A DNA stretch of 64,000 bases from Buxus sempervirens. Lineage: Eukaryota; Streptophyta; Magnoliopsida; Buxales; Buxaceae. The stretch spans positions 40,071,220 through 40,135,219 of the forward strand of contig OX387186.1 of the NCBI GenBank assembly GCA_947561395.2, written 5' to 3'. A program made the translations under genes and the position numbers. Position 1 is the stretch's first letter. Every line of letters begins with the position of its first letter. Positions 24,371-47,039 of the stretch are shown here, piece after piece. The notes beneath the pieces are model-generated. The model had not been told where the DNA came from, made no database searches, and was given only the letters and a program-made list of their open reading frames with translations.

Positions 24371-24399
24371 CTTTGACAGGGTCAACCTCAATTCCTTAT

Positions 24400-25230
24400 T
24401 TTCCAACGATGAATCCGAGCAGCTTCCCTGAGGTAACGCCGAATACACACTTATTCAGGTTCAGCCTGAGTTTGCATTCCCTGAGCCTGTCAAACACCTT
24501 TCCAAGGTTCACCAAATGACTTTCCTCTTCTTTTGATTTTGCAATCATGTCATCCATGTATACTTCCATTTCCTTGTGCATCAGATCGTGGAATAACAAA
24601 GTCATGGCTCGCTGGTATGTGGCGCCTGCATTCTTCAACCCGAATGGCATCACTTTGTAGCAGTATGTGCCCCAGTGCGTGATGAAGGATGTCTTTTCCA
24701 TGTCTTCAGGCGCCATCCGTATCTGATTATACCTAGAGAATCCATCCATAAAGGAGAACATGGAATGAGTTGCAGTATTGTCAACCAATATATCAATGTG
24801 TGGCAGCGGAAAGTCATCTTTTGGGCTTGCCTTGTTCAGATCCCTGTAATCAACACACATCCTAACCCTCCCATCTTTCTTGGGGACTGGCACAATGTTT
24901 GCTAACCATTCTGGGTAATCTGTAACTTTCAAGAACCCAGCTTTTAACTGCTTAGTGACCTCTTCTTTGATCTTCAGGGCCCATTCTGGTTTCATGCGTC
25001 TGAGCTTTTGCTTCACTGGTGTGGCCTCAGACTTTATAGGTAACCGGTGCACAACTAAATCCGTGTCTAACCCAGGCATATTCTCGTATGACCATGCAAA
25101 CACATCAGTGTAGGTTTTTAGAAAATCAATTATCTGTGTTTTCTGTAATAATGTTAGCTTTTTACCAACTTGAAGAATCCTTCGTTGTGCTGCGTCACCT
25201 ATGTTGATAGGTTCAGTTTCCTCAATATTA
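24400..25230 (-). pseudogene. Reverse transcriptase region of the large element
   Basis: Contains the gypsy RT blocks in order: PVKQKLRRMKPEWALKIKEEV, LANIVPVPKKDGRVRMCVDY, RDLNKASPKDDFPLPHID, FSFMDGFSRYNQIRMAPED, GTYCYKVMPFGLKNAGATYQ and the active site EVYMDDMIAKSK. It lies between the protease/linker side and the RNase H pair, as in all gypsy elements. In Ogre-type elements RT is known to be reached by splicing out a short intron between protease and RT; whether that holds here cannot be read from this copy alone. Fossil copy. Confidence 0.9.
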
Positions 25231-25232
25231 GC

Positions 25233-26260
25233 CTAGAGACCCTTTTCATGCCTGTCTAAGGCAAATTGGATTTCAGGTGAGGTTTCCCATGATTCATCAT
25301 TATCCTCAAGTTTAAAAGAATCACTGGGGATAATTTCTGAATCATCGGGTTGTGATGAGTAAGTGTCGCTATCTGATTCCTGCTCGACACTATGGATTTC
25401 TTTTTGTTCTTTTTGACCTTTTTGTTTTTGTTTGATTTTGGCAGCCTGATTATCTATCTCGTGCTCCGAATTTTTCGGGTGTGCGTCGAGATTGATATTA
25501 AGGTTGCGATTTTGGGTTTGCTTATTTGCAGAATTATTCACAGAAGCAGAAAAATAATCAAAAGACTTCACGCATTTATTAAAAAGTGCAGCAATATCTA
25601 CAGGGGGAATTTCAGAAGTGGAAGAAACTCCCTGTGGTAGTTCGGCTTTGCGAGTGGCAAGTGGCGTCGAACTCCAGTTCTGCAATGCGTGCTTGTCCTT
25701 GGTTACAGCGGTCACCGCATTCACCTTCCCGGTTTGTATCATGCTGATGTTGTTGTCAGAGGAGATGCAGATGGGGTCATTAGCTGTGCCCTTCTTTGGT
25801 TGATTCTGACTTGAATCTTCTGATGATACACTGATCCATACCCCGCGGCGGATGACAGTCCCTGGTACCCGAATAGTGACTTCGTTGGGTGGTTCCACCT
25901 TAGGCAATGCCTTGGTTACAGATTTTTCTGATGATTCATCCCTCCTGCTGGAAAAATGTTCGTCAGGGGCCCAGTTACCATAAGTTTCATGATAAGCCAG
26001 CTCAGTAGGCAGTCCCAGTACTTGGGGCATATTCTGGAACATCTGACCCAGACCATCCCTTGTACTTGGGTGTATAATGCAGATGGGAGGTGGGGGAGAC
26101 CTTTGCCTTGGAGTGGGTTCTCCTGAACTATCTTGGCTTTCCATCATGTAGATGTACTGAGCTGGCTCTTCTTCTTCAGCCTCAGTTGGTGGTGCCTCGA
26201 ACTCATCTGATGGGTAGGCAAATGCCTCTTTCGGGATAGCTGGTTTTTCGATGTCAACAG
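25233..26260 (-). pseudogene. Linker between protease and RT of the large element
   Basis: A low-complexity, charged and Ser/Pro-rich stretch (QDSSGEPTPRQRSPPPP, KIKQKQKGQKEQKEIH, then an acidic tail before RT) without a recognised domain. In Ogre-type elements the protease-RT junction is the site of the family's known intron, so part of this stretch may be intronic or a spacer. I see no catalytic motif. Confidence 0.5.
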
Positions 26261-26264
26261 ATTG

Positions 26265-27300
26265 CTAAGAGAATAAAGCGGACAGTTCTTCCATCAACCC
26301 ACTGAGAGCTTCTGAGTTCTCTTCTGTGACTGTTTCCTGGGGCAAGGGAGGTTCGTCCCATAACCTTTGCAGATAATTAGCTTCCACTTGATCAGCTGGA
26401 TCATTGAATTCATCGCCCCATCCCTGGGGGATTATGTTCTGAACGGCCTGTGCAGCTTCCCTCTCCATATTGGTAAAGTGATGGTATAATTGGCCATGTA
26501 CACAGATGGGCCAATGTGGGTCCCTTCCTTCTGCTCGTGCCCTCTTTCGTTCAGCTTTCATGCCAAATAACCTGGCATTGTCTTCGGGTTCAGGAACAAA
26601 CCCCAATCCAAAGCCCACAGATTTGTCACATGGCTGGATTGCAGACTTGATGCCTTGCTTGTATTTGCCCAAACAATCTCCTACTCGGAGGCCCCAGTCG
26701 GCGCATTCAGCAGCACCGAACATACTCTTTCTTTTCCTTCTGCGGGACAAGTCTGATTGCAGAGGAGTAGGAATGCGGTTTACTTGCACCATTTCAATGG
26801 CTTGGAAGTTTAGGGAAGTAGGCAGCTCAAAATCAATCACAGGTACCCCTCCTTGTTCAAATTCTCTGTGATTTTCTGCATGCACCGTGATTAATTGATT
26901 TCTCGAAATAAATCGGATCATTCGATGTAAGGTGGACGGGACTGCCCCTGCTTGATGTAACCAAGGTCTTCCAATCAGCAAATTAAAGGAGGCATTGATG
27001 TCCATCAACTCAAAGGTGACGAAGAAGGCCCTCTCAGCAATTGTAACTTCCAAAGTAACTTCCCCAAGGGAATCCTTTTTGGCATTGTCAAACCCGCGGA
27101 CATTATTGGAGCTAGGTTTGATCAAATCAGCGTTTAGCTGCAGACTGTGGAAGGTCCTGACTGGGGCAGATATTCAGAGCTGACCCGTTATCTATCATGA
27201 CCCGTCTCACTATTAAGTCGGAGCACCTTACAGTGATAAACAGAGGCTCCGTGTGATTATAACCTTCAGGGGGCAAGTCTGCTGAGGAAAAAGAGATTGC
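26265..27300 (-). pseudogene. Aspartic protease and G-patch-like region
   Basis: The retropepsin core shows RRVMIDNGSALNICP (the D-[ST]-G-type active-site block as written in Tat elements), FFVTFELMDINASFNLLIGRPWLHQAGAVPSTLH-type sequence, and IRFISRNQLITVHAE. After it comes a Gly-rich stretch, GLRVGDCLGKYKQGI and FGLGFVPEPED, which resembles the G-patch-like tail that follows protease in this clade, then a basic helix (KAERKRARAEGRD). The protease would process the Gag-Pol precursor. It sits between gag and the linker. Fossil copy. Confidence 0.8.
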
Positions 27301-29512
27301 TTCTGGCGTAGCAATTATAGACATTACTGTCTCCAGCTGCTCAGGGCTGATGTCGTCAAGCACATGAGTATCACCCAGTATTTTCATAAGTACATCCTTA
27401 TGTTTGTCTGAATCTAATAAAAGATGCATAATGGATATTTGGGCTGGTGTCTTATTCAACTGCTGCACTAGATCATACTCCGAAGCGAAGGCACTATAGT
27501 GGAGTCTTTCAATCTCTTCTTCTGGGGCCTTCCCTTTCTTCTTATGGGTCTGTGGCACTTCAGCGGCCACATCCTTCCCTTTTTCTTTCCTTGTTCTTTC
27601 TTCACTAGTCTCTTCCTCTGGTGCAGGTGGAGGGTTAGGGTTTATGTATCGACTAGAACGGGTGATCCGATCGACTTCTCTTTTAGTGGAAGTGATGGTA
27701 GAATCATGGTACATGGGTAGGAATTGGTAAGGTGGAGGCACAGCGGAGTAGGTTGGGTCAAGGTGAAGTTGGTGTAAGTTGAGGGTGGGTGGTTCCAGTA
27801 GGAAGTCCACAGGCTCATTGAATGGGTTGTTCATCATGTCGAAGATGTTTAATGGGGGTGAGTTTGGGACAGGTGGAGGATAGAAGGGCTCTGGTTCGGG
27901 AAAGTTGAAATGCACCAGAGGGAACCCCATGAAAGTTTCTTCATTCTCCTCTTCATTAATGACATGTATCTGTTGATAAACTGCCCCTTCTTGGAGATGA
28001 ATCTTGACAACTTGCTCCGGTCGTCCAATTAGTAAGGACGGGTCAGCCTGTAGTTTACTGCCTTGATCACTGGTGATCTGATGTACTGTTTCGCTGCTAG
28101 AAGCCTTATTATGGTCTGGGAGAGGGTTAGTGGCAGTACCAGTAAGAGGAGTAGGTGCTGCTGGTGCTGGGGGATCTACAGAGATCTTCTTACTGTCTAT
28201 TAGATCTTGTATGTCATGCCTCAAATCCCAGCATTGATTTGTTGAATTCCCGGGAGCTCCAGAATGATACTCGCATCTCTCTGCTGCATTATAATTTCGT
28301 GAGTTGATCATTCTGGGGTTAGGAGGCTTGATTTGAAGGTACCCCTTCTTCAGCAGTGTAGACAACAATTCTGCAGGTGCATAAGGCAGCGGGGTAAACA
28401 CCCTCTTCATTCTCGCCTTTGCTTCCTCTCTGGTCCTTCTCAGAGGTTGCCCCTGACTTTCATTCCTCTGGGCAATGTGATATGGCTGTGCTGGTTGTAC
28501 ATAATTAACAGCCTGGGCTTCCTGCCTTCTGGGCTCTTGCCCCTGGCTTCTACTATTCTGTCCTGCCGCTGGCCTCCTCTGTGTCGGACCATGGCCACTT
28601 CCATCTATCTTTCCAGCCCTTACAGCATCTTCAATCCTGTCTGCCATCAGAATCAAGTCATTGAAGTTAAAAGTGCTTTGCCCTAGTAGCAGGGAAAAGA
28701 ATGACTGTCCAAGTGATGCAATGAACAAGGAGGTCATCTCCTATTCAAGTAGTGGGGGTTGGACTAGGGTCGCCAATTCTTTCCATCTCTTGGCATATTC
28801 TCGTACTGACTCTTGATTCTTCGGAGAGCCTTTGTAATTCTGCCTTGGTCTGAACTATCTGACTGTTCAATCGGTATTGCTGGATGAACTTGGCAGCTAA
28901 ATCATTCCAACTTTTGATCTTAGTCTTATCCAAACCCAAAAACCAATTGTATGCTGCTCCTGTCAGCGACCTCTGAAAGAACTGTATCATGATTTTTTCA
29001 TCTTTGGCATATTGACACATATCTCCAGAGTATGACCTTAGGTGGTTTAACGGGCACCCGGTGCCATCAAACTGATGCAAGTCAGGGCACTTGAATTTCG
29101 GTGGAAGTTGAACATCGGAGAAGAAGCAGAGGCTGTCTAAAGTAGCCTCCATGGGGACCGCACTGGGTCGTAGGCTTTTCAGCTCTTCACGCAAAGCATC
29201 TACCTCTGACTTAGTGGCTGCCATCTTTTCATCAAATTGGGCCTGCTGTGTTCTATACCAATCTTCCTCTTCTTGCCCTAGTTGGGCAGGTGCAATAGTT
29301 TGTGGAAGAGGTACTGCCTGTGGAGGCGGAGGTGGTACCAATGGTGCTGGGTACACAAGGTATGGTGGTGGAGCATCCATCTGTGGTGGAGCAATTGGTT
29401 GCTGCAGGGTCACTGGTGCAGCTGGGGGAGTCATCCTGAGTTCTCTTAATTCTGCCATTAACTCTTGAATAATAGTCCCCATACTGTCAATCCTCTGTTG
29501 TAGATCAGTCAC
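27300..29512 (-). pseudogene. Gag region of the large element
   Basis: Starts at MTDLQQRIDSMGTIIQELM, a short coiled-coil segment, followed by a Pro-rich stretch and the retrotransposon-gag fold: LPPKFKCPDLHQFDGTGCP, MIQFFQRSLTGAAYNWFLGL, WNDLAAKFIQQYRLNSQI. Further on come NFNDLILMADRIEDAVRAGK and a CX2H...C element, CEYHSGAPGNSTNQCWDLRH, which Tat-clade Gags carry in place of a classical zinc knuckle. A long Pro/Glu-rich tail leads into protease. The gag at 36565-38439 shares all these blocks. Fossil copy; the fold is easy to recognise. Confidence 0.85.
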
Positions 29513-29739
29513 TGTCTATGTCTGGCTGGACTCTGCCTGGTCCTGTTCCGACAAGGTCTGTTCCCTTGGCTACTCCATCTCAAGTCTTCTTCTGGATCTT
29601 AACAGGTAAGGGCTTCGAGAAGCAATTTTGGTACCTGGGAAGGGCAACCAGCGGATATTAGTGCAACTTATATGCATGATTATTGATGTATTCTAACTAT
29701 AAAGAAAGATCAAGGATCAATTTGTTTGAATTATTTTGA

Positions 29740-30020
29740 AAATGATAGGGACTCTTAAGCTTGATCTATTTTAGCCGAACGGCTGGGAAAGAGAACCTAG
29801 TTTAGATTGGTCTATTTTAGCCAAGCGGCTGGGAAAGAGAACCCGATTTAAACTGATCTGTTTTAGCCATATGGCTGGGAAAGAGAACCCGATTTAGGCT
29901 GGTTTGTTTTAGCCAAGCGGCTGGGAAAGAGAACCCGATTTAAACTGATCTGTTTTAGCCATAAGGCTGGGAAGAGAACCCGATTTAGGCTGGTTTGTTT
30001 TAGCCAAGCGGCTGGGAAAG
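29740..30020 (-). repeat. Hairpin repeat array of the large element, left half
   Basis: Six units of about 45 bp, each containing an AGCC-n4-GGCT palindrome (agccatatggct, agccaagcggct, agccataaggct) followed by gggaaagagaaccc. The array lies upstream of gag and continues at 46800-46945 beyond the nested element, which landed inside one unit and duplicated gaaag. Confidence 0.9.
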
Positions 30021-32342
30021 TGTAGACACCCCAAATTGCACAAACAATCATCAAAAATCATTATCTCCTTGAAAGCCAGCACAGAAATTGAAGAAAATGA
30101 ATTTTTACCTGTATCCGGCAACTCAGGCCGGATACAAGTAGTACTCTGTGTATCCGGTGATCAATACCGGATACAAGCAAGCCTTAGTGTATCCGGTATT
30201 ATATACCGGATACCTTAAGGCCCTTGTGTATCCGGTCTGATATACCGGATACACAAGTTTTGCTCAAAATTAGGGTTTTCCGAGAGCTTTTCACTTTTAC
30301 CATCATATCCCTCATTAAATGAGGGGAAATCTCGGAAATAGCCTTAGGGTTAAGGTTGGTGGGCTATAGACATTATGTTGTGTCTATCAATCTCACCAAC
30401 CCTAACCCTAGCCTTTGCCTATAAATAGGAGGCTCCTCCTTAAGCAAATGGCAATCAACTCTTGTTTTGAATTCTCGCCAAGAAGAACTCCAAGAGAAGA
30501 AGGAAACCGCTGCGGAAGTGCATCCAGAACGAAGGTAAGCCTCAAACTTTTATTTTATTTTCTGTCTTTACATTTCTAGATCTAGATCACTTCTTCTACC
30601 TTTCTGTAGAATAAGGCTTTCTTTGTGTGTGAAAACCTTTCCCTGGCTCAAAGTATCTCGAGACTCCCCCTAGCCGTAAAACGTGGAGGCGGGATCTAGG
30701 AGAAACGAGACCGGGGATTGACCCTAGTACTAGAACCTATGTAGCATAAAGCCTTTTGATTGATTGTAAACCGTTTCATATTCAAAGTACCCTTGATTAT
30801 CTTGAAGAACCGTGTTTAACAGGGAGAGAGAACAGAGGGAAACGATAATGGAACGGAACCCTAGGCTGTTCTTAGAACCTTATTTTGATGAATATGCATG
30901 CATGCTATTGATCTTGTTTGGTTTTTCACACTTGCACATACATATCACTATTTTGGCGGGATAGGCTCACATTTTGGGTTTATTGCATTTATTGTGATAA
31001 ATCTGAAATAAATGGCCTCAATCAATTCTGAAATGTCTTTGGATGATTTTTAAAGGTTTTGGATTCATCTTGCACGAATCACACACACTTTATCACAGTT
31101 TTGAGTTGGTTTTGCTCAAAAATGGCTTAACTTGACAGCACCTGTACCCTTACTTCGGACGCTCATAACTTCATCGTCCGGATGAATTTTGGAGCGATTC
31201 CAGAACCATGGGAAAGGTGAGGCTGTCTAGTTTATGTCCACCAAATGTCATTAATTTCTATTGAGTGGATTTTTGACACCTCTCTGTCGAAGTTGATTGG
31301 ACAGTTCAGGTTCAAATACAGAACTTGTCACTTCGACGGAGCGCCATGTGTTCGTTTTAAATCCGATTCGAGTGCTTTTTGTTTCTGAGCACTCCTTTAT
31401 GAGTCTATTTTCAAATCCAGCTGGTTTCATAATTGTTCGACTCCATTTGTATTATCGGTAGCCGATTTACTCAGAACTGCGCAATGGCACTTTTCTGGGT
31501 AAATCTGTGATCTTCGGGGCCTGTTCGGGAGACCACCCAAGGCACATCCGAATGAGTTTTTGTATGAGGCTAGTTTCTTTTGAAAGATGACCATACAGAC
31601 TTCAATCACACCAAATTTCGTGGGTTTTTATGTAGTGGATTTTTCTAGGTGATTTTCCAAAGTTGCCTACTTATCACTTTTAAATATCCCCAGCAGCAAC
31701 TTTCAAGGAGCATAACTCCTAGGTTTTCAACCGGAATTACTTGAAATTTTGAATGAGACTATTATTTACCATAATCTTTCAAATGGATTTGGTTTGATTT
31801 GATTTAAAATTGGATTTGAGTGATTTCAAGACAAATGGCCTTACTTTTCACCGAATTTTCCGGATTTGATTCAACTTGGCTTTGGACATTCTTTTGCTTG
31901 GATTTTTTTTTCCTTTTATGACATTTCAGAAATGATATTGACATAAGAGAAGATTCAAAATCCATTTGGATCTTCATGTGAATATATCATACACTTGTTC
32001 CTTTTTCAAGGCTTTTCATGATTTTTTAGCAAGCTTCCTATTTTCTTTTAGCATGAACAAACACTTGGCAACCACCTTGTGTGGGTGAATGGGGGTGCCT
32101 AACACCTTCCCCCGTTCATAATCTAATCCCCTTACCCATCTCTGGATTTGATTTTCAAGTAGGGTTATTTTTACCCTAGAATTTGCCTTTTAGCACCTTT
32201 TTGCTATTTTTGCTTATTTTTAATTCTTTTGGTGTCCATTCACACCCAAAATCTGAATGGTGGCGACTCTCCCAATTTTGCGTTGAGCCCGTGTGTTGAC
32301 GGAGGGATGATCATCTTCCGGTGATTTTTTCCATGTCTCACA
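30021..32342 (+). repeat. 5' LTR of the gag-only element
   Basis: 2322 bp, TGTAGACACCCC to CATGTCTCACA. Four perfect palindromes on gtatccgg/ccggatac occupy 30114-30254. The TATA box (cctataaatagg) is at 30418-30429, and the leader begins near the gcaatcaactcttg stretch. A diverged minus-strand relative is the solo LTR at 5018-6826, and another begins at 61966. Confidence 0.95.
30114..30254. repeat. Cluster of four palindromes upstream of the LTR promoter
   Basis: Four 25-bp palindromes with 9-bp arms. The first has arms GTATCCGGC and GCCGGATAC; the next three have GTATCCGGT and ACCGGATAC, so the ninth pair changed on both arms. The 7-bp loops differ each time. The cluster ends 165 bp before the TATA box. 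The same cluster is at 42004-42147 in the 3' LTR. Confidence 0.95.
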
Positions 32343-32344
32343 AC

Positions 32345-32443
32345 TGGCGACTCTGCTGTTTTTAGGATGAGCCCGTGTGTTGACGGAGGGGGAATCATCC
32401 CGGTGATTTTTCCATGTCTCCCAACTGGCGACTCTGCTGGGGA
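32345..32443 (+). promoter_or_regulatory. Primer-binding site region, present twice
   Basis: Directly after the 5' LTR stands TGGCGACTCTGCTG (32345-32358), complementary to the 3' end of plant tRNA-Arg. About 80 bp further on stands a second copy, TGGCGACTCTGCTGGGGAC (32426-32444), preceded by a near-copy of the last 50-60 bp of the LTR (gagcccgtgtgttgacggag, ccatgtctcccaac). The second copy extends further into the tRNA match. Confidence 0.8.
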
Positions 32444-32639
32444 CTTGTGGATTTAAGCCATTTTGTGTATATTCATGCTTTTTCTTCACTTTTGAATGCT
32501 TGCTATTTTGCTTATTTTATTTGTGCATATTGTTGTATCTTAAATCTGAATGGGATGTTTAAAAATTTACATGGATAAAGGCATGGGCATGTTGCTTGAT
32601 TTTTGTTTAAAGGAAAAACCCATATTGTTATATGACTTT

Positions 32640-33200
32640 GCTATATTATGTGTTAGCATTTGTTTTGGGGTTTCAATGCCATGAGCTAAAAAAATAAAAA
32701 AAATTCAATATTTGAAATCTGGAAATTTTGTGTTGGGTATTCAAGCATGTTTCCCATGAATAAAGCTTTTTTGTGCTTAATGTTTGTTTTATGCCATGCT
32801 TTGGATTTGGGGGTATAGGATGACATGATTTGAGCATGAAAACCATGAGCATGAAATCTGGAATTCAGTAGTTAATTTGGAGGTTTTCAAGCATGTTTTT
32901 ACCATCAAAACTCTCCTTATACCATGTCAATTAGTTGCTAAATTTTTAGGCATTAATTTGGGGTATGAGTGATGCACTTTTGAGCATGAAAAATCTGGAA
33001 ATTTGAGTGTATTTCGGGGGAGATTTCAAGCATGTTTTACCTAATTGAAACACTTTTGGACCATGTCAAGTAGTTGCTAAAATTTTTAGGCTTCAACTTG
33101 GGTAGAAATGGTACACTTTGAGCATGAAAATCTGGAATTTTAGGGAATGCTTTTGGGTTTCAAGCATGCTTCCATGGTTTAATTGTTGTTTGCACCAAAT
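32640..33200 (+). repeat. Diverged tandem repeat in the leader of the gag-only element
   Basis: About four units of roughly 140-150 bp sharing gagcatgaaaatctggaa, ttcaagcatgttt and accatgtcaagtagttgcta. No coding potential is evident. The remainder of 32444-34347 holds no domain; 33201-33930 is unassigned. Confidence 0.7.
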
Positions 33201-33935
33201 AACATGTTTGTATACCACTTTTTGGGCATGTAATATTTTTGTGCATATTTGGTTGCTTTGGTTCTCTTGCTTGCTTGTATTTAACTTCATTATATTGTCA
33301 TATGTGCCTTGGCTTGAAATTGAATGCATGGCTACGAAAAAGAGTGGCAAGGGGCTGGGACGTTGTGAATGTTACCTCAATTTTAAATTGCACTTGAGCA
33401 CTTTAAACTATTTGCACAGCCTACCCATTACCTATAGGAAGTTGAACCATGAATGTGTGTAGCTTGGCGCACCGAGGTCGTGACTTCGGAAAGCGAAAGT
33501 GAAAACATTCACCTTAGAATTTGAATCAATGATGTGATGACAATGGGATCTGTGATTCGATTCCGGGCATCACTAGACTTGAGTTCTAAGTTGCCAATTA
33601 AGCCAAAACCCAAAAACCATACGCTTGAAAGTGGAGAAACACGTTTTCAGCTAAAAGCACACAATTGCGTTTGGGGAATTGGGTGTAAATGTGGGAAGGC
33701 CGTTTGCATGTTTTACAGGCCAAGGTACAATGTGAATACCATATTGAATGAAGGTAATACAAGGTGGCAAGGTAAAGCCATGTTCTTTTCATGAATTTGG
33801 GGAATTTTGCAAATATGATGTCCAAGCCCAATTTGGGGCAAGTTTTGAAGGTCAAGTTAAGGTGAACATCAAGTGGGAATGAAAAAAAACCTAATCTGGT
33901 GAAAAAATGAGTCAAAAATGGCCATTTCGGCATTA

Positions 33936-34075
33936 ACCGGCAACTCAGGCCGGTTAAGAACACTTTTCTTCATATCCGGTATATAATGCCGGATACAAAG
34001 GGTTATGCGTGTATCCGGTCATTATTGCCGGATACAGTAAGACATATGCTTATCTGGCACTTAATGCCGGATACA
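33936..34075. repeat. Internal palindrome cluster of LTR type
   Basis: Four palindromes on ccggc...gccgg and tatccgg/ccggatac (ccggcaactcaggccgg, then three with atccggt/tgccggat-type arms). They resemble the clusters in the LTRs at 30114-30254 and 11711-11960 but lie inside the element, between the primer site and gag. Confidence 0.85.
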
Positions 34076-34347
34076 TGCAGAAAATGAATAAATTGGCTTT
34101 TTCAGCCCGAATTTTCAGAATAAAATGCCTAAACACTGTGGATAATCCTTAGGCACCCCAAAGAAAATATAAAATGTCCAAAAAAAATAATAAAAAAAAT
34201 GTATATTCCTTTAAGATTAAGAATAATGTGGAAGCTCAAAGAACAAGATAAGGTGTCATATTTTTGATATCAATTCAATTCAAACATGTGTCAATCAAGC
34301 TTTAGAACTTGAAAATTGAGAAAATTCAGCAAATTTCAAAAATGAAA

Positions 34348-35633
34348 CCCTTGGTTGGTCTTCTTTTTACCAATCAAATCAAAAAAAAAGTGGGACCTCT
34401 GGAAGCCCTAAAATATTCCATAAAAACCCTTGGTTGGTCTTCTTTTTACCAATCAAGTCAAAAAAAAAGTGGGACCTCTGGAAGCCCTAAAATATTCCAT
34501 AAAAACCCTTGGTTGGTCTTCTTTTTACCAATCAAGTCAAAAAAAAAGTGGGACCTCTGGAAGCCCTAAAATATTCCATGAACCCTAGGTTGGTCTTCTT
34601 TTTACCAATCAAATCAAAAAATTGTGGGGACTTCGGAAGCCCTAAAATATTCCATAAAAACCATTGGTTGGTCTTCTTTTTACCAATCAAGTCAAAAAAA
34701 AAGTGGGACCTCTGGAAGCCCTAAAATATTCCATGAACCCTTGGTTGGTATTCTTTTTACCAATCAAATCAAAAAATTATGGGACCTCTGGAAGCCCTAA
34801 AATATTCCATGAACCCTTGGTTGGTCTTCTTTTTACCAATCAAATAAAAAAAAAGTGGGACCTTTGGAAGGGCTATAATATTCCATAAAAACCCTTGGTT
34901 GGTCTTCTTTTTACCAATCAAGTCAAAAAAAAAAGTGGGACCTCTGGAAGCCCTAAAATATTCTATGAACCCTTGGTTGGTCTTTTTCGTACCAATCAAA
35001 TCAAAAAATTGTGGGACCTTTGGAAGCCCTAAAATATTCCATAAAAATCCTTGGTTGGTCTTTTTCGTACCAATCAAGTCAAAAAAAAGTGGGACCTTTG
35101 GAAGCCCTAAAATATTCCATAAAAAACCTTGGTTGGTCTTTTTCGTACCAATCAAATCAAAAAATAGTGGGACCTCTGGAAGCCCTAAAATATTCCATGA
35201 AATCTTGGTTGATTATTTTCATCAATCAAATCCAAAAAAAGTGGGACCTCTGGAAGCCCTAAAATATTCCATAAAAACCTTGGTTGGTTATTTTTATCAA
35301 TCAAATCAAAAAATTGTGGGACCTTTGGAAGCCCTAAAATATTCCATGAAAACCTTGGTTGGTTATTTTTATCAATCAAATCAAAAAATTGTGGGACATT
35401 TGGAAGCCCCAGAATATTCCAAAAACCTTTGTTTGGTCACGAGAACCATTCAAAATCAAAAAATTTATGGGACATTTGGAAGCCCCAGAATATTCCAAAA
35501 AAAAAAAAAAACCTTTGTTTGGTCACGAGAACCAATCAACTCAAAAATTTGTGGGACATTTGGAAGCCCCAGAATATTCCAAAAAAAAACCTTTTGGTTG
35601 GTCTTCTTCGTACCAATCAATTGAAACCTTTTT
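34348..35633 (+). repeat. Tandem array of 77-79 bp units with two hairpins each
   Basis: Sixteen or seventeen units. Each unit carries TTGGTTGGT...ACCAATCAA around a T-rich loop and TGGAA...TTCCA around gccctaaaata. The early units are nearly identical (period 79); later ones diverge (tttggtcacgagaaccaatc, ccccagaatattcc). Long open frames across the array result from the period and are not genes. It lies in the leader upstream of gag. Confidence 0.95.
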
Positions 35634-36320
35634 GGGCCATCTAAAAGCCTCTGAATTTTAGACAAACCTCTTTTGGCCGTCTAAAAGCCTCTGAATTTTA
35701 GACAAACCTTTTTGGGCCATCTATAAGCCTCTGAATTATAGACACATATCCTTTGGGCCGTCTAAAAGCCTCTGAATTTTAGACACAATCTTTTTGGGCC
35801 ATTTGAAAGCCTCTGAATTTCAAACATCAATCTCTTTGGGCCATCTATATGCCTCTGAATTATAGACACATATCCTTTGGGCCGTCTAAAAGCCTCTAAA
35901 TTTTAGACACAACCTTTTTGGGCCATTTGAAAGCCTCTGAATTTCAAACATCAATCTCTTTGGGCCATCTATAAGCCTCTGAATTATAGACACATATCCT
36001 TTGGGCCATCTAAAAGCCTCTAAATTTTAGACACAACCTTTTTAGGCCATTTGAAAGCCTCGGAATTTCAAACATCAACCTATTTTGGGCCGTCTGTAAG
36101 CCTCTGAATTATAGACACATATCCTTTGGGCCGTCTAAAAGCCTCTGAATTTTAGACAAACCTTTTTGGGCCGTCTATAAGCCTCTGAATTATAGACATA
36201 TATCCTTTGGGCCATCTAAAAGCCTCTGAATTTTAGACACAACTTTTTTGGGCCGTCTATAAGCCTCTGAATTATAGACACGTATCCTTTGGGCCGTCTA
36301 AAAGCCTCTGAATTTTAGAC
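35634..36320 (+). repeat. Array of 17 hairpin units with three co-varying stems
   Basis: Units of 40-43 bp begin gggcc and contain a 7-bp stem around the constant loop agcctctgaa. Stem types are TCTAAAA/TTTTAGA (8 units), TCTATAA/TTATAGA (4 units) and TTTGAAA/TTTCAAA (3 units). One more unit has TCTGTAA/TTATAGA (a G-U pair) and one has a single innermost mismatch. Units are homologous to the ggaagccctaaaatattcc half of the preceding array, a copy of which follows at 36335-36362. Confidence 0.95.
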
Positions 36321-36564
36321 ATTTCTCATTCTTTGGGACCTTTGGAAGCCCTAAAATATTCCAACAATCAAAAAAACAAAAAATGGAAAAATATAAAAAA
36401 AAACAAATAAATAAATCCGGACTTGTGTTCACCCAACCCACTTATCTACATTTATAGGTGTATGACTCAAATTAAATGAAAGCTGACATGTTTCTTTGCT
36501 TTTCCTTACCTAGGTACATTTACTTGCAATCATTGCTCCCGTGACCAGATCCAAAGCCCGCATC

Positions 36565-38439
36565 ATGAATACGGAAGAGAACCAAGCTCAAGCCACCGTG
36601 CCAGCCCAAGACTTTGCTCAGCTGCAAGAGCAAGTGGCTAGTCTGGCCAAAATGCTGGGGGACTTACTGGCGGCTCAGGCCCAACAGGCCTAGGCCCAGG
36701 CCCATAACCAAGCCTCTACTTCCCATCAAGCACCACCACCTCAGGCCTACATTCCGCCTCCAGCTCAACCCATGCCTGAGCCCATTTCTGAACCGGTCCC
36801 TGAACCTATTCTGATCAGGGAAAATACAGCAGAATCTGAGAAAGAAATAGAGAAGGAAAAAGCCAGGGAGGAGATGGAAAGAAAACTCCTGCACAAGATT
36901 GAAAGAATTCAGGAGGAACTGAAAGAAGTGAAGGGAGGAAATAGTTACGGAGGCACCGCCTTTGACGATCTGTGCATGTATCCAGACGTATGCCTTCCGG
37001 CCAAGTTCAAGTGCCCGGACTTCGACAAATATGATGGCACGGGCTGCCCATTGAGCCATTTGAAATTGTACTGCGGGGCTTTGTGCCAGTTTGGCCGGGA
37101 TGACGGCATACTGATCCAACTCTTTCAGAGGAGTTTGACCGGGTCAGCTCTTAGGTGGTTCGCCACAGTTGATCATGGGAAGATTAGAGGATGGAAGGAC
37201 CTGGCAGACACCTTCTTAGACCAATACAAATTTAACTCGGAGATCGTGCCAGACCGGTACGACATTATGAGGATGAGCAAGGGCAAAGATGAATCTGTGT
37301 GGCAATATTCCAAGAGGTGGAGAGAGGCTGCCTCCCAGGTCAGGCCGCCTATGCTGGAACCTGAAATGATCTCAACATTCATGGGTACGCTGGGGCAGCC
37401 CTTCTACAATCACCTGGTGGGTCAGATCACCACCAATTTTGCTGCCCTGGTACAAGTGGCCGGCCGGATTGAGGATGGGATCAAATCTGGCAAGATAATT
37501 GATTATTCCACCATGATCAGTCAACAAGACTCCACTCATAGCAAGGGAAATGGTAATGGAAAGAAAAAATCTGAGGAAAGAAGAGAAGCAGAAGTGAATA
37601 TGGTGCAGCTTCCCAAGGGACCCGTTCAAATCAATGCCCATCCAGTTCCTTTGCTGCCTATCCAAATTAATGTTCCCTCTGCACAGCCTGTGAAGGAGGA
37701 AACAGAAGTAAGGAAGAGAAGGGAGTTTTCAAAACTGCCTATGAGACCATCTGAACTTTTGCCTACCCTACTTCAAAAGGGTTATGTGACTTTGAGGTTA
37801 CCAAATCCTCATGCAAGCAAGGGGAAGGGTTATGATCCATCTGCAATTTGTGAATATCATATGAGTAGTCCAGGGCATACCACAGATCGTTGCTTGGCCC
37901 TAAAGCATGCAATTCAGGATTTGCTGGATAATAACTCTTTATCATTCAATTCAGTCACACCCACTCCTCCTCCCACCAACAACAATGGGGCAGGCAGCTC
38001 AAATGCAATAGGGGCAATTTTCTCTGGAATAAGAAGATTTGATCCTTCTCAACTTATTGCTCCAGTTGGTACCACAGTCCGGGTTTATTTTGAAAAAGAA
38101 GATGAATGGGGCCATATGGAGAAAGAGACTTATACAGGGGCAGATTTTAAGGAAAAGAAGGAAGGGGTAATGGAAGAAAAGAAAGAGGCAAATGTTGAAT
38201 TCATTTTGCCACACATTGATTGGGCAGTCATCCAAGTTCCAGATCAAGTAACGTCACTTCTTCCAAGGGCTGAGCATGATGTCCTAAATATGAAGGCAAT
38301 GGCTAATCAAAGAAAGGAATTCTTCCCTCAACCAACAGAAGATGAACATTTTTGCAAAAATGGAAAAAAATCAACCTTTGTCTTTGAGAACAGGGGCAAT
38401 TCTCGAATTCCCATGTTCTTTGAAAAGAAACCCCCATAA
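36565..38439 (+). CDS. Gag of the gag-only element
   Basis: The reading begins at MNTEENQAQATV (36565), shortly after the repeat arrays. An N-terminal Gln/Pro-rich part leads into a coiled coil (REEMERKLLHKIERIQEEL), then the retrotransposon-gag fold: LPAKFKCPDFDKYDGTGCP, LIQLFQRSLTGSALRWF, WKDLADTFLDQYKFNSEI, AALVQVAGRIEDGIKSGK, and the CX2H...C block CEYHMSSPGHTTDRCLAL. A Glu/Lys-rich tail ends in FFEKKPP. The same blocks occur in the gag of the surrounding element (27300-29512), so both belong to one clade though their sequences differ clearly. It would supply particle protein, with enzymes from an autonomous partner. Fossil element; one or two breaks. Confidence 0.85.
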
Positions 38440-40343
38440 GGAGAATGCACATTTCCTGAGGATCTAAGGAGCCTTGTTCTCAGGAAGTGATTTCAATAAA
38501 GGCTCTTTCAAAAGCAAAAAAAAAAAAAAAAAGAGTTTTTTCCCTTTAACATTTTTCTAAAAAAAAAAAAAAAGAAAAAAAGTTTTCAACAAGGTCCTGT
38601 TTTACTTATGAGTCATATCTCCTATTGAATTTCATTAAGTTGAATATGACTTCGACATTGGGTTCAATCTTGAGACCAAAATCGAAGAAAAAGACATTTT
38701 ATATGAAAATTCAAATCCTTTTAAGGGTCATGAGAAAAATATTCTGCAAAATTATGAAGTGACCAATTTTATAGCCTTTGGAACCAAAGATGACCCACAG
38801 TCTTCAACAGAAAGATAGAAGAAGATTTGAAGTTTCTTCATTAGAAAACAGAAAGGATCACACCACTTGCTAATTTGTTCAAAGGGAAGTTGATAATATT
38901 GTTTGAAGAAATTTTGGGGCTTTGCACTTGAAAATATGGGAGAAGATTTGACCTTTTCGTTGGAAATCGAATTGAGCATCATCTAATGGAAAGAATCCAA
39001 ATTCATAAGATTGATCAAAAGGTGAAGAACTTGTTCATAACAGAGGTTCTATTTGAAGAGGCTTTTATCTTGATAGAAGTTGATTAAAAAAAAAAAAGAA
39101 AAGAAGGAAAAATCCTGAGCCAGTCATGTAGTGCAACTCTACCAAGTCTGAAAATTCAAACTTTTCTTAAAAGGATAAGAGGCCTTTCTTTCTTATATCC
39201 CCAACAATTTGAAAACCCTAGTTAGACCCTTTGAGCTTGATAAATTTTTCCAAGTAACCTAAACTGAGAATTGCAACCCCACACTGGGGCAAATTATTAA
39301 GGCATAAAAAAGAAAAGAATGAAGGGACAAGAGAAGGGGGCATTATTGAAGTTCAAAAGGGATTTTGAAGATGTTTTCAAAAAAGGGGGCAAAGAAATGA
39401 AAAAAAAGGGGCAAATAAATGACAAAAGAAAAAGAAAGATCATCAAATGTTATGTGGAGAATGTCTTCAAAATTGTGAAGAGAAAAAAAGTTCAATAATG
39501 GGAAATAAGTTTTAAATGAAGAAATCAAAGTGGGTGAAGAACTTCATTATTGGGGGCAATTTTGTATTCACTCCAAGGGAAGAAATGCCTTAAAAATTGC
39601 AATTTCAGTTAACCCATTAGATCATATGGTATTTGAGCCTTTTATTCCTTTTCTTTCTAAACAAACACCAAGCCTTCGTTTCGTCCCATTCATAAGTCCT
39701 CTTTGATTAAGAAATTTTGAATTAAGGCAATTTTGACTACATAGTTACTGGTGATAAAGGATTAAAAAAAAAAAAGAAAAAAGAAAAAAATGGAGAGAAT
39801 GTAGTGAAAACCCGGAAGGGCGCTACATGGCAAATAATCAGCTATCTACAAGAAGGAAATCGTCAGAGAGGAAAGTCCAGAATTGGCATGGATCCAGGTG
39901 AAGTCCTCATGTTGGTGGTTATTTTGAGATACAGTCACTTTTCGAGTCATTGAGGAAAATTCTCTTTTCAAGGCTGAAGCAACATAATCAGAACTATGAT
40001 ATGAATCATCTATGAACAAGTTGATGGCCATAAAAATTGCCATTAGGAAATTATTGCTGAAGTTGAAGTCATAAATTCTCATATCATGGATACAATAGGG
40101 AAACAATTGCTTTTCAATTGGATGAAGGAAAATGTCTTTCTAGACTGGAGCAAAATAGTCAGATTGAAAGAGTCGTCATATCTAGAGCATCAATTGACAA
40201 GCCGATGGTCATGGGAATGATTCTAAAGGTTCTGAAGGCTTATTTCGGTCTTTCTTCATTTTCTGAAATAATCTTCTCATTATTCAACTTGATTTTAATT
40301 CTTTTGGACTATATGCTCATAAGTGGTGGGATCACTTTTCAAA

Positions 40344-40380
<37 letters not shown>

Positions 40381-41408
40381 ACACAAAAAAAAAATATTTT
40401 TGGCCTATGATGAGCATCTATGTCTTTTCATAAAAACATTGGTTTTGCAAGCATTAGAGAATTCTGAGGCCACTAGTATAAAACCTATTTTTGTATTTGC
40501 ATTCCTTTATAAGGGTTTCTTTTTTGCAAAGGTTAAAAAAAAAAAAAGAAGAAGAAAGAGAAAAAGAAAAAAAGAAAAGAAAAAAACAAAGAAAAAAAAA
40601 AGAGGATCATCTCTGCTGAGGGGCAAATACTACTTCAAGCAATCAAAACTGGGGCATGCTCAGCGCCTTTCCCTCTGAGTTTTCATTGGAATAAATTACA
40701 GCATCTGGAAGAAGCAGTCAGGCCTTAGTCATTGGAGTTGAAAAAAAAAAAAAAAAAAGAAACTTCGAAGCAGTTGCATGTTTTCTCCTTTAAACAAAGG
40801 TTTCCAATTCTGAGGAAGGATTTTACTGGAGCAGTAAGAAGGCATGAATGAAAGGTCATGGGTTGTAAGGGCATGAGTTCAGATCAACAGATCATGATTT
40901 TCAAATCCATCAATCAAGAAGAGGCATTCACTTGGGCAGTTGAAAAGAATGAAGGCAGGCTATGGGCAGCAATGGCACATACATCCTTATTGAGAGAGCA
41001 AGAAGATGAAGAAGCAAAAGCAAGTTGCAGAATATTCAAGCACAGGTTTGGGCATCCAATGGCACCCAGGTATGTCAAATGAAAAAAAATCAATCAAGAA
41101 AATTCAATAAAATATTTCCTTCCTTATTGTTAAGCGGTTAAGTGAAAAACATCGAAAGCAATTGAGTTTGCAGAGGTCAATTTTAAATCCACCTTCTTTT
41201 CAAAATTTGCTTGTCTCAGATTTCTTTTCATAGCCACGAGAGCTCAAAGAAATCTGAGATAAGGAAGAGACGCCACCCCCGTCAGACTATACACAGCAGG
41301 GGTTTCATTGGCTATCTTCAAATCCATGTTTTTTTTATTACTCATTTGTTTGACCAAAGCAAGTTCAATTAATGAGGTGTCTTTCAAACGTGCAATTTTG
41401 AGTTGTGT
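38440..41408 (+). other. Non-coding 3' interior of the gag-only element
   Basis: Where pol would be expected I recognise no protease, RT, RNase H or integrase motif on either strand. The stretch is A-rich with oligo-A runs and a (TA)n tract at 40351-40381. Copies of the phrase cacagccacgagagctcaa at about 41233 and, beyond this stretch, near 41572 and 41714 form a loose repeat. Confidence 0.65.
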
Positions 41409-41457
41409 TGTAGACACCCCAAAATTGCACAATTTTTGATAAATCTTGAAGGAGAGG
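41409..41457 (+). repeat. Stray copy of the LTR start
   Basis: tgtagacaccccaaaattgc and the next 30 bp resemble the first 50 bp of the LTR that starts at 41915, about 500 bp before it. Its aaaattgcac forms an inverted repeat with gtgcaatttt at 41390-41399. Confidence 0.7.
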
Positions 41458-41900
41458 AATATATTATTGGAATTTTCAAATCTTTGCATTGGGTTTGAGG
41501 AGCAAAAAGAAATGCACTGCAAAGTTCACTATTTTCTCACAAAATCCTATTTTTGCCTTAAAATCCACCTCACAGCCACGAGAGCTAAGTAGAATTTAGG
41601 ACAACTTTGGGAAATGTGCTGGTCAAAAAGGATGATATCCACTCAATTTTTAACTTGGTTTGATAAAAAAATCAGTTTTCAAAAATCCTATCTTTGGGCT
41701 TAAAATCCACTTCACAGCCACAAGAGCTCAGTGGAATTTAAGAACTCTTGGAGAGATGCCCCCTTAAAGTTAGGGCTTTTTGGCAAATCTTCACTCAAAA
41801 ATTGCTTTCTATAAAATTGAATTGAATCAAGCAAATCATGCTTAAGGGAGTGCAATTTGGGCTTGTCTAATCTTTGCAGCTCACTGCTTCGCAGCTCCCA

Positions 41901-41914
41901 CAAAGAGGGGCAGT
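41901..41914 (+). promoter_or_regulatory. Polypurine tract of the gag-only element
   Basis: CAAAGAGGGGCAGT directly before the 3' LTR start (TGTAGACACC at 41915). It differs by one base from the tract of the surrounding element. Confidence 0.85.
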
Positions 41915-42213
41915 TGTAGACACCCCAAATTGCACAAACAATCATCAAAAATCATTATCTCCTTGAAAGCCAGCACAGAAATTGAAGAAAATGAATTTTT
42001 ACCTGTATCCGGCAACTCAGGCCGGATACAAGTAGTACTCTGTGTATCCGGTGATCAATACCGGATACAAGCAAGCCTTAGTGTATCCGGTATTATATAC
42101 CGGATACCTTAAGGCCCTTGTGTATCCGGTCTGATATACCGGATACACAAGTTTTGCTCAAAATTAGGGTTTTCCGAGAGCTTTTCACTTTTACCATCAT
42201 ATCCCTTATTAAA

Positions 42214-44370
42214 TGTAAAACCCCAGTTTTGAGTAGAAACAAAATAAAATAATAATACTAGAATAAACTAAATTAACAGTCACAGTAAGGAAAATAAACA
42301 AATAATAACAGTAGATGAAAAAAATATATATATATATATGCACATATAGATGTAGGTGCAGGTTAAATCAAATTTTATTATTGCTAGGGACTTGTGGTCA
42401 TCAGGGTTAACAAAAAAAAATGGAAATATTCGGACCCGTAAATAAATAAGAATTGGTCAATAGTTAAAATCCGGGAAAATCCCTACATTAATGAGGGGTA
42501 GAAAAGGGATTCGAGGGATAAGAGCGGATTAGGTCAAACCCTGGCAGTGTCTATAAATACGAAGCTCCTATAAAAATTTTCGGGGATTTTGGAGAAAGGT
42601 GGCCGCTCTAGAGAAAGTTAGGGCAGCAGTCCAGCGGGTTAGGTCTCGAAATGGAATCCACCCAGGATGGCCGGAAGCTTGAAGAAGGTCTTCAATACTA
42701 GGTGAGTGGCATTGTTTTACAACCGAGTTTTCGGATTAATTCGTGTATTTGATTGAATGAATGCATTGTTTATGATTGAAGTATTCTCGGTGTGTTTTCT
42801 GGGCAAACCAGTTACGGAGGGTTTTGTACAGTGAATTTGGGGATAACTGGAAATCATGTAGATTAAATCCAAATTAGGTTTGGATGTGTCCTGGGAGTAT
42901 TAGGAGGCTATATAAATGGTTACAGACTGAAAAATTTCAGCCAGAGTTGGATTTCTGGGATTAACAGAGACCTGGGAATCGTAGTGGGCTACCGCCCACT
43001 TGGCGCCTACCTGGCGCCCACTTAGGAAGTGAGCGCCAAGAAAAAAGGACCCGGCGCCGAGCTAGCGCCCACCCCGCGCTCAACTCGCGCCTACCTCAAG
43101 TTTGAGCTCCTTTCTCGCGCTTTTCTCGCGCCCGTCTGGCGCCTAGCTCGCGCCCACTCGTCCACGAGTGAGCGCCAGCTTCAGTTATACGAGCGGACTT
43201 ACCGCCCACTTGGCGCCTACCTGGCGCCCACTTAGGGAAGTGAGCGCCCAGTTGTTTTTCGTGCAGAATCCTATAATTTCGTAAAACCAAGGGGGTTCTG
43301 GATACTAGAGGGTCTTCAACCACTTACCCAACTAATTGATTACGACATTAGAGGTAACAATTTTGCTGGTGAGAACATTTGAGATAGATCCTAGTTTTAG
43401 TAAAGGCTTATGAAGTAGGTGTGGAGAAATAATTCGAGGATGCTCGGGATGTTTACATACTAGGGCTTTATTTTAGTCCTCTTGAAACATGCATTGTTTG
43501 GTACCTGATTTGATTTATTGAACCCCGTTTTGATGGCAAGTTTTGAATGAAGTTGTAATTATTATTTATTTGAACACTGGTGTGAGTTGATGTTCTGGTT
43601 GGAACACTTGTGTGAGTTTATGTTCTGGTTGGAACACTGGTGTGAGTTGATGTTCTGGTTGGAACACTGGTGTGAGTTGACGTTCTGGTTGGAACACTTG
43701 TGTGAGTTTATGTTCATGTTGGAACACTGGTGTGAGTTGATGTTCTGGTTGGAACACTGGTGTGAGTTGACGTTCTGGTTGGAACACTGGTGTGAGTTTA
43801 TGTTCTGGTTGGAACACTGGTGTGAGTTGATGTTCTGGTTGGAACACTGGTGTGAGTTGATGTTCTGGTTGGAACACTGGTGTGAGTTGATGTTCTGGTT
43901 GGAACACTGGTGTGAGTTTATGTTCTGGTTGGAACACTGGTGTGAGTTTATGTTCTGGTTGGAACACCTGTGAGTTTCTGTTCTGGTTGGAACAATTTGT
44001 GATGTGCATGCCGACTGCGGTGTTTTATCGGCGATTTATCGGTTTTAAACTTGGTTTATCCTGAATCCAGAATTTAAGTCCGAAATGTGATGCCTTTGTC
44101 TATTGGGGAAATGGCATGGCCAGGAAGCGTTGCCACTACCCATGTAGGGCAGCCAGATACCGTGGGTAGTACTGGTTGTCAGTGTTGATACCCGGAGTAG
44201 GCCGGCACTGGATGATGAACCCTGGGTGGTTCGTCATTTCAGAGTATCCGAAACCCTGAGAGGGCCGGAACTGTGTACATGAGGTTGGGAAGCAGCTCTG
44301 GCATATGGATTAACCAATCACACAATTGCATAACATTGACCAGGGTAGGAGCTCTGTGATATCCGGCTTG

Positions 44371-44402
<32 letters not shown>

Positions 44403-44772
44403 CTTGATGGATTGTGGTAGCATTAGGGTTTTCTTTTATCGGTTTCATCGAAGCCTTGTTTACTTGTCGTGTGGTTATTCGATTCATAATTTCAACGGTA
44501 AATTGTATTTGAGCATGCATGTGTCACTCGCTGAGATATTCGTATCTCATCCCCTCGTTATGGTTTGTTTTTCAGATGCGTTGGAGCGTAGGTACTTGCG
44601 GGTTAGTTCGGGGCCATGTGAGTTATTATGTTGGGGTTATTTTAGCGCACTCTGTTTCGCAGAAATTTTAGCTTCGTGTTTTCCTTACTCTGGTAGTGCG
44701 ATCCTGTTAATTATGGTGACCTCTGGATACGAGTTATGGGTTTTCCATGTGACTCGGATCTGGGGCATTACA
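42214..44772 (+). mobile_element. Solo gypsy LTR (Tekay/Del-like), target duplication ttaaa
   Basis: 2559 bp, TGTAAAACCCC to GGGGCATTACA, flanked by the perfect 5-bp duplication ttaaa at 42209-42213 and 44773-44777. The TATA box (ctataaata) lies near 42551. A CG-rich leader segment with ggcgcc/gcgccc motifs and a duplicated phrase (accgcccacttggcgcctac, 42990 and 43201) follows at 42980-43250, then the 30-bp minisatellite and a (TA)n tract at 44371-44396. The clade is inferred from ends and size. Confidence 0.9.
43574..43995. repeat. 30-bp minisatellite inside the solo LTR
   Basis: Fourteen units of tgttctggttggaacactgg plus tgtgagtt and ga, ta or a variant. Each unit has the small palindromes gttc-tggttg-gaac and cac-tg-gtg. 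Two opposing open frames across it (about 130-150 codons) are period artefacts. Confidence 0.95.
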
Positions 44773-46799
44773 TTAAATGAGGGGAAATCTCGGAAATAGC
44801 CTTAGGGTTAAGGTTGGTGGGCTATAGACATTATGTTGTGTCTATCAATCTCACCAACCCTAACCCTAGCCTTTACCTATAAATAGGAGGCTCCTCCTTA
44901 AGCAAATGGCAATCAACTCTTGTTTTGAATTCTCGCCAAGAAGAACTCCAAGAGAAGAAGGAAACCGCTGCGGAAGTGCATCCAGAACCCAGGTAAGCCT
45001 CAAACTTTTATTTTATTTTCTGTCTTTACATTTCTAGATCTAGATCTCTTCTTCTACCTTTCTGTAGAATAAGGCCTTCTTTGTGTGTGAAAACCTTTCC
45101 CTCGCTCAAAGTATCTCGAGACTCCCCCTAGCCGTAAAACGTGGAGGCGGGATCTAGGAGAAACGAGACCGGGGATTGACCCTAGTACTAGAAACTATGT
45201 AGCATAAAGCCTTTTGATTGATTGTAAACCGTTTCATATTCAAAGTACCCTTGATTATCTTGAAGAACCGTGTTTAACGGGGAGAGAGAACAGAGGGAAA
45301 CGATAATGGAACGGAACCCTAGGCTGTTCTTAGAACCTTATTTTGATGAATATGCATGCATGCTATTGATCTTGTTTGGTTTTTCACACTTGCACATACA
45401 TATCACTATTTTGGCGGGATAGGCTCACATTTTGGGTTTATTGCATTTATTGTGATAAATCTGAAATAAATGGCCTCAATCAATTCTGAAATGTCTTTGG
45501 ATGATTTTTAAAGGTTTTGGATTTATCTTGCACGAATCACACACACTTTATCACAGTTTTGAGTTGGTTTTGCTAAAAAATGGCTTAACTTGACAGCACT
45601 TGTACCCTTACTTCGGACGCTCATAACTTCATCGTCCGGATGAATTTTGGAGCGATTACAGAATCATGGGAAAGGTGAGGCTGTCTAGTTTATGTCCACC
45701 AAATTTCATTAATTTCTATTGAGTGGATTTTTGACACCTCTCTGTCGAAGTTGATTGGACAGTTCAGGTTCAAATACAGAACTTGTCACTTCGACGGAGC
45801 GCCATGTGTTCGTTTTAAATTCGATTCGAGTGATTTTTGTTTCTGAGCACTCCTTTATGAGTCTATTTTCAAATACAGCTGGTTTCATAATTTTTCGACT
45901 CCATTTGTATTATTGGTAGCCGATTTACTCAGAACTGCGCAATGGCACTTTTCTGGGTAAATCTGTGATCTTCGGGGCCTGTTCGGGAGACCACCCAAGG
46001 CACATCCGAATGAGTTTTTGTATGAGGCTAGTTTATTTTGAAAGATGACCATACAGACTTCAATCACACCAAATTTCGTGGGTTTTTATGAAGTGGATTT
46101 TTCTAGGTGATTTTCCAAAGTTGCCTACTTATCACTTTTAAATATCCCCAGCAGCAACTTTCAAGGAGCATAACTCCTAGGTTTTCAACCGGAATTACTT
46201 GAAATTTTGAATGAGACTATTATTTACCATAATCTTTCAAATGGATTTGGTTTGATTTGATTTAAAATTGGATTTGAGTGATTTCAAGACAAATGGCCTT
46301 ACTTTTCACCGAATTTTCCGGATTTGATTCAACTTGGCTTTGGACATTCTTTTGTCTTGGATTTTTTATCCTTTTATGACATTTCAGAAATGATATTGAC
46401 ATAAGAGAAGATTCAAAATCCATTTGGATCTTCATGTGAATATATCATACACTTGTTCCTTTTTCAAGGCATTTCATGATTTTTTAGCAAGCTTCCTATT
46501 TTCTTTTAGCATGAACAAACACTTGGCAACCACCTTGTGTGGGTGAATGGGGTGCCTAACACCTTCCCCCGTTCATAATCTAATCCCCTTACCCATCTCT
46601 GGATTTGATTTTCAAGTAGGGTTATTTTTACCCTAGAATTTGCCTTTTAGCACCTTTTTGCTATTTTTGCTTATTTTTAATTCTTTTGGTGTCCATTCAC
46701 ACCCAAAATCTGAATGGTGGCGACTCTCCCAATTTTGCGTTGAGCCCGTGTGTTGACGGAGGGATGATCATCTTCCGGTGATTTTTTCCATGTCTCACA

Positions 46800-46945: not shown

Positions 46946-47039
46946 AAATTTAAAAGGTTGGTTTGAGCTCAGTATCACGAGGTTGGACCATGTTAAGTCT
47001 CCGCAGGGGATGAGCTAAACAGCAACATCCAGGTGTACC

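Follow-up and report, generated by a model that had tools for sequence, protein, structure and literature searches.

Tandem hairpin units with paired stem changes in the leader of a gag-only LTR retrotransposon of Buxus sempervirens

Descriptions of tandem repeats within plant LTR elements usually treat them as hypervariable by-products and as seeds of satellites. Some LTR elements, termed TR-GAG, contain gag only; we know of no leader hairpin array by which they are defined. In retroviruses, packaging and dimerisation are functions of the Psi leader, composed of a few distinct stem-loops, and for the BARE RNA pools of plants a structured leader has reportedly been proposed to steer RNA into particles. 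According to excerpts of two reports, Tat/Ogre LTR retrotransposons carry tandem repeats downstream of the coding region, in the 3' untranslated part (PMC7004042; PMC11963269), and an excerpt of the former cites the hypothesis that these repeats are made by illegitimate recombination or abnormal strand transfer (PMC7004042).

The array described here was identified in a window of 64,000 nucleotides of B. sempervirens, i.e. the whole stretch of DNA analysed, to which all positions refer. Like retroviral Psi and BARE, it represents a structured leader, extending between the primer site and gag, of the kind proposed to steer RNA into particles; unlike Psi, it consists of many tandem copies of one hairpin, and its packaging role is putative. 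It resembles the Tat/Ogre repeats in that those are also short family-specific arrays, reported in the excerpts from non-autonomous copies lacking pol as well (PMC7004042; PMC11963269). It differs from them in its location (35631-36322), upstream of gag (36694) and after the primer site, and in being built of hairpin units with paired stem changes, which these excerpts do not mention (PMC7004042; PMC11963269). Among titles and abstract openings of the open-licence PMC literature, nothing similar to tandem hairpins in a retrotransposon leader was found.

The array resides within a gag-only LTR element (30021-46799), flanked on both sides by GAAAG, a target-site duplication. The features of this element and of its insertion site are as follows.

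30021-32342, plus strand: 5' LTR (TG...CA), defined by self-BLAST
32343-32440, plus strand: primer-binding-site-like ACTGGCGACTCTGCTG, two copies 81 bp apart
33973-34075, plus strand: hairpins TATCCGG...CCGGATA, two perfect and a third, TATCTGG...CCGGATA, with one G-U pair
34345-35626, plus strand: 78-bp tandem array of about 15 units with two hairpins each
35631-36322, plus strand: 41-bp array of 17 hairpin units with stem types A, B and C (unit listing and TRF), the unit being GGGCC-R-stem(7)-GCCTCTGAA-stem(7)-CA-linker
36334-36365, plus strand: lone hairpin unit of type D at the end of the arrays, before gag
36694-38439, plus strand: gag open frame, stop to stop, 581 aa (Pfam Retrotrans_gag, E 2.6e-10)
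38440-41914, plus strand: region from gag to the 3' LTR, without a pol-like match (tblastn)
41915-46799, plus strand: 3' LTR, interrupted by about 2.55 kb (42216-44770), defined by self-BLAST
29762-30020, with a second part at 46800-46965, minus strand: 46-bp leader array of another element, with stems AGCC/GGCT and AACC/GGTT

The sequence following the 5' LTR is presumably the tRNA-Arg primer site of Ogre-like elements; its second copy reads TGGCGACTCTGCTGGGGA, and the duplication of the ACTGGCGACTCTGCTG stretch takes in the LTR end. A tblastn search (E 1e-3) with the frames of the neighbouring element detected no RT, RNase H or integrase in 38440-41914. The position assigned to the array by the sequence-only reading, between primer site and gag of a gag-only element, is supported: the gag frame is present and a pol match is absent. 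With two LTRs, a target-site duplication and a gag gene accompanied by no match to RT, RNase H or integrase, the element resembles TR-GAG. As regards the Ogre/Tat trait of a pol containing a second RNase H, together with a gag-pro/pol intron, the region 38440-41914 gave no pol-like match, and the element is therefore an Ogre/Tat gag-only derivative at most.

The neighbouring element, whose 46-bp tandem array was the target of the insertion, is encoded on the minus strand and possesses gag, RT, RNase H and integrase frames (21945-29515), which match RT, two RNase H-type domains and integrase. Its gag product shares 46.5% amino acid identity with that of the array element over 129 residues. Taking into account this value and the unlike sequences of the two leader arrays, the 41-bp and 46-bp arrays probably arose separately. 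The insertion of about 2.55 kb within the 3' LTR (42216-44770) holds a 30-bp tandem array of 14 copies (43572-43994).

A recount of the 41-bp array agreed with the 17 units and three stem sequences reported earlier; the units are spaced at 40-43 bp, with loops from 35647 to 36304, and TRF revealed a period of 41 (16.8 copies) at 35631-36321/36322 as well as a 124-bp period comprising three units. Type A stems (TCTAAAA/TTTTAGA) occur in 8 of the 17 units, type B (TCTATAA/TTATAGA) in four exact units and two variants, and type C (TTTGAAA/TTTCAAA) in three. One of the B variants, TCTATAT/TTATAGA, carries a T-T mismatch at the innermost pair and the other, TCTGTAA/TTATAGA, a single G-U, while 15 of the 17 stems pair perfectly, exactly as had been claimed. 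The constant 10-nt loop agcctctgaa proposed at the same time stands with respect to its core, but not its length: a 7-bp stem encloses a loop of 9 nt, gcctctgaa (with the variants gcctctaaa in two units and gcctcggaa in one), the innermost A of the stem having been counted in. In units with a G preceding the stem, it provides an eighth pair (G-C). An Rfam search of 29500-43500 yielded 16 matches up to E 5, none of which fell in the array or reached the gathering score.

The 78-bp array lies directly upstream. One hairpin of its unit, D (TTTGGAA-GCCCCAGAATA-TTCCAAA and variants), is homologous to the 41-bp unit and has a TGGAA/TTCCA core, and the second (TTGGTTGGT/ACCAATCAA) frequently contains G-U pairs. 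A 258-aa open frame (34848-35624) traverses this array; it is probably without meaning, since the 78-bp period is a multiple of three. Hairpins of the form TGTATCCGG...CCGGATACA are found in both LTRs (30110-30260 and 42004-42155) and in the leader (33973-34075). In the LTR hairpins, TGTATCCGGY...RCCGGATACA, the inner pair is C-G in one case and T-A in the others.

Within the searched genome (676.5 Mb in 247 contigs), exact copies of stem A number 3427 and those of stem B 1691. The 41-bp array used as a query gave at least 98 matches, with the best 40 of 826 candidates scored. In 39 non-duplicate places, types A and B were always present and type C was found in 38; pairing was perfect in 780 of their 920 units (822 of 920 if G-U is allowed). 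A pattern for stem variants with a changed third base matched 45 places genome-wide, and the 30 that were fetched exposed a further array type, E (stem TCTGAAA/TTTCAGA, loop GCCTTTGAA); in the subsequent search with the type E array the best 40 of 2233 candidates were scored. Type D stems read [C/T/G]TTGGAA/TTCCAA[G/A/C].

The resulting set of 70 loci, which drops L017 (a near-duplicate of L016) as well as L077 and L078 (both overlapping L033), has leaders in which types A, B, C, D and E are combined in differing orders and numbers, and the string of units closes with a D unit in 62 of the 70. DNA similar to positions 36500-36900, the start of the gag side, was present in 63 of the 70 loci (some matches being short), with 81-100% identity in 45 loci and 66-75% in 18; the latter contain the same unit types in other orders and numbers. 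The array is thus present in other copies of the family, a result that is partly circular because the copies were found by array or unit searches. The loci L016 and L017 (C1:15.84-15.85 Mb) are similar, lie 12 kb apart and contain 45 units each by loop search; apparently they represent a local duplication of an expanded array. Downstream of gag, three places of the E subfamily were examined for an autonomous partner with the same array: the first matched the neighbour's gag-to-RT frames, with no RT in the next 3 kb, the second matched the gag-only downstream region of the array element itself, and the third matched nothing.

The sequence-only reading regarded the paired substitutions as the mark of a conserved structure. 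They are real: three pairs of this array are involved, and leaders of the family add two or more other stem types, all on a conserved flank and loop. However, the paired changes are seen between types only. In the corrected G statistic calculated for types A, B, C and E (366 distinct cores), the top three of 378 column pairs were stem pairs 5, 4 and 2. Two-arm differences separate A from B (pair 5), A from E (pair 4), E from C (pair 2) and C from D (pair 5), for which the simplest reading, as distinct from a computed tree, is a branching order of A to B, A to E, E to C and C to D. In simulation, two random changes within a 7-bp stem leave full pairing with a probability of 0.0255, and four two-arm steps would all retain it by chance at about 4e-7. 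Therefore, the pairing between types is not due to chance.

Within types no covariation was detected: 1664 units contained 4 compensated doubles versus 4.2 expected by independence (A 1, B 1, C 2 and E 0, against 2.28, 0.64, 1.25 and 0.05, respectively). This set covers types A, B, C and E of the 70 loci, excludes units differing from every type by more than three letters, and contains units midway between two types (e.g. C and E) whose assignment is ambiguous. The 294 units of E arrays have C-G in 248, T-G in 27, C-A in 12, T-A in 1 and others in 6 at pair 2, and G-C in 242, A-C in 23, G-T in 22, A-T in 1 and others in 6 at pair 4, as independent decay would give. The third stem base is C in 18 of the 30 chosen loci, with an opposite G in 2 of these 18; the frequency of right-arm G (20 among 1370 units) would predict about 0.3, which makes this a weak excess. 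The signal thus sits between a few ancestral types amplified in tandem, and the independent paired changes are few (four to five). The reservation that covariation might reflect a few amplified ancestral types thus largely applies, although the signal between types still exceeds chance. Pairing was kept while about five ancestral unit types arose, and the present copies merely decay.

The same data bear on a pure founder effect, in which a few accidentally palindromic types were amplified in tandem and pairing was never maintained. All present covariation does lie between types, and both tandem and transpositional amplification multiply covariation of this sort. Nevertheless, this explanation is disfavoured and very improbable, given the chance calculated above for four two-change steps retaining all seven pairs, and given that the pattern recurs in hairpins D and E, which belong to neighbouring arrays and another subfamily. 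Paired change is also seen in the 46-bp lineage, in whose units the second stem base is G in 1337 and another base in 977 genome-wide. In the first 100 matches listed for each group, all on contig C1, the G is opposed by C in 98 and by T in 2, and the non-G base is always A, opposed by T in 95 and by C in 5.

A comparison between types gave differences at 15-30% of stem sites, 6-14% of loop sites and about 9% of flank sites; the linkers differ by 34-57% in edit distance, a figure that may be inflated as they are T-rich and variable in length. The type B linker differs by only 14% between subfamilies, which may indicate recent sharing of part of the array. A loop changing less than the stem and linker would be the trace of a partner reading the loop, unlike neutral copying of the arms.

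Such copying is the main rival to a selected structure. Hairpin-templated synthesis, in which a polymerase (perhaps the reverse transcriptase) switches template and copies one arm onto the other, could create paired stems without any selected RNA function, and as hairpins also promote slippage it would account for the tandem arrays. An excerpt of PMC8794818 documents template switching as a maker and mender of stems, which could yield identical paired differences. Several unrelated tandem arrays (41-bp, 78-bp, 46-bp, and CCGGATA of the LTR and leader) all consist of hairpins, types A and B differ by a swap of A-T for T-A, which lacks a G-U intermediate, and 22 units combine a B left arm with an A right arm, all of which would fit. 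However, unlike the stem repair of that excerpt (PMC8794818), neither loop inversion nor present compensation is seen here: an exact inverted loop between exact arms is absent in the 70 loci, and within types the compensated doubles, no commoner than under independence, reveal no present correction. G-T, which correction at the DNA level should remove, persists at high frequency in the second hairpin of the 78-bp unit, and the conserved loop and flank are left unexplained. We consider this origin possible, though somewhat unlikely.

In that second hairpin (560 units), G-U forms the majority at pair 4 (420 units), and at pair 8 it occurs in 227 units versus 6 with A-C and 10 with A-U; T-T is also common (97 of 560 at pair 4 and 68 of 560 at pair 9). 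The outer pair of hairpin D, in 416 matches that include a few spurious ones, is C-G in 114, T-A in 114, G-C in 14, C-A in 59, T-G in 57 and T-C in 31.

The two arms of a perfect stem have nearly mirror-image contexts, and strand-symmetric mutation should therefore generate sense-strand G-U and A-C about equally. Genome-wide, 131 variants of stem A have G-U changes only versus 95 with A-C only, and for stem B the numbers are 112 versus 55; taken by units, this amounts to 243 versus 150 (binomial p 3e-6). This excess is weakened because units are not independent events. In the sampled copies, G-U versus A-C was 84 versus 68 by locus and allele (p 0.22), 107 versus 83 by distinct context (p 0.095), and 25 versus 26 in the E subfamily; these event counts exclude pair 3 from the second set, whose loci were selected for pair 3. 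Among distinct units, variants shared by at least two loci show more A-C (16) than G-U (10), and private variants 86 G-U versus 57 A-C, the latter figure including loci chosen for the changed third base. Singletons in the unpaired leader of 39 loci (per site: C>T 0.0075, G>A 0.0079, A>G 0.0037, T>C 0.0032) display no strand bias matching the G-U excess. Shared variants of the unpaired leader are equal for C>T (0.0387) and G>A (0.0394), while A>G (0.0146) is lower than T>C (0.0193), which is not the direction of the excess. The sense-strand G-U excess is a hint, not proof.

In RNA folding, the plus strand of the array was more stable than 20 of 20 shuffles (z -1.97), whereas for the minus strand 12 of 20 shuffles were as good (z +0.42). 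The pair-probability matrix of the plus strand gave the middle pair a value above 0.5 in 12 of 17 stems. Isolated units A, B and E fold with the 7-bp stem (-7.0, -7.6 and -5.9 kcal/mol), while the best folds of C and D (-3.0 and -5.2 kcal/mol) differ from the 7-bp hairpin.

Strandedness is also relevant to a role in DNA or chromatin, in which the array would offer palindromic sites to a host protein or give rise to small RNAs silencing the family. Conserved palindromic cores in many repeats would suit multivalent DNA binding, and dispersed high-copy repeats are the usual sources of siRNAs. A dimer site, however, should retain the letters of its half-sites, and here the half-sites change while their symmetry is preserved; any genuine G-U bias would be specific to one strand. 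We regard this role as improbable.

The most economical reading, to which we assign a probability of roughly 45%, is an RNA hairpin module whose pairing was kept by selection in active source elements. On this view, the array would be a tandemly amplified module carried in the leader of the RNA that serves the element both as genome and as gag message; the sense strand of each unit is predicted to form a 7-bp stem capped by a constant 9-nt loop, following the fixed GGGCC flank. During the active period of the source elements, selection on the RNA probably preserved the pairing of the stem and left its letters free; two-sided changes would then have produced about five stem types, multiplied via tandem exchange and transposition. 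An RNA with many identical loops would be suited to multivalent binding, the likeliest partner being the Gag of the element itself during RNA selection or dimerisation, and a role in the translation of gag behind a 4-kb leader seems less likely. The sequences themselves show the anatomy, the pairing between types, the many copies, and the conserved loop and flank versus the variable linker; selection, action as RNA and the packaging role are inferred. In favour of the RNA module, the stem letters are freer than the loop letters, yet still paired, and folding surpasses shuffles on the sense strand but not on the antisense strand. Against it, covariation is absent within types, the G-U excess loses significance when counted by locus, the stems are AU-rich and weak, and the amplified non-pairs are not G-U alone (C-A and T-C in D, T-T in the second hairpin).

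The unit may additionally close as an H-type pseudoknot by 3-4 pairs between GGGC of the flank and GCCU of the loop. Geometry (1-2 nt crossing the 7-bp stem) and conservation permit this, and the flank-loop pairs found no support from covariation (ranks 125, 53, 106 and 62 of 378). It is also conceivable, but in our opinion unlikely, that leader arrays with identical loops serve these plant retrotransposons generally as a cis-acting RNA device, which selects or pairs their RNA in particles and would have evolved independently in two lineages of one genome.

The original observation stands and extends wider than first described. The secondary structure of the array is kept from one unit type to another, in thousands of copies and in subfamilies that have diverged; a nearby, unrelated lineage behaves likewise. 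The natural A, B, C, D, E and mismatch units make the ideas of RNA action and template switching testable. Should template switching be its origin, the array would be a clear example from nature of hairpins shaped by reverse transcription; should the structure function in the RNA, plant retrotransposons would possess in it a cis-element serving packaging, dimerisation or translation.
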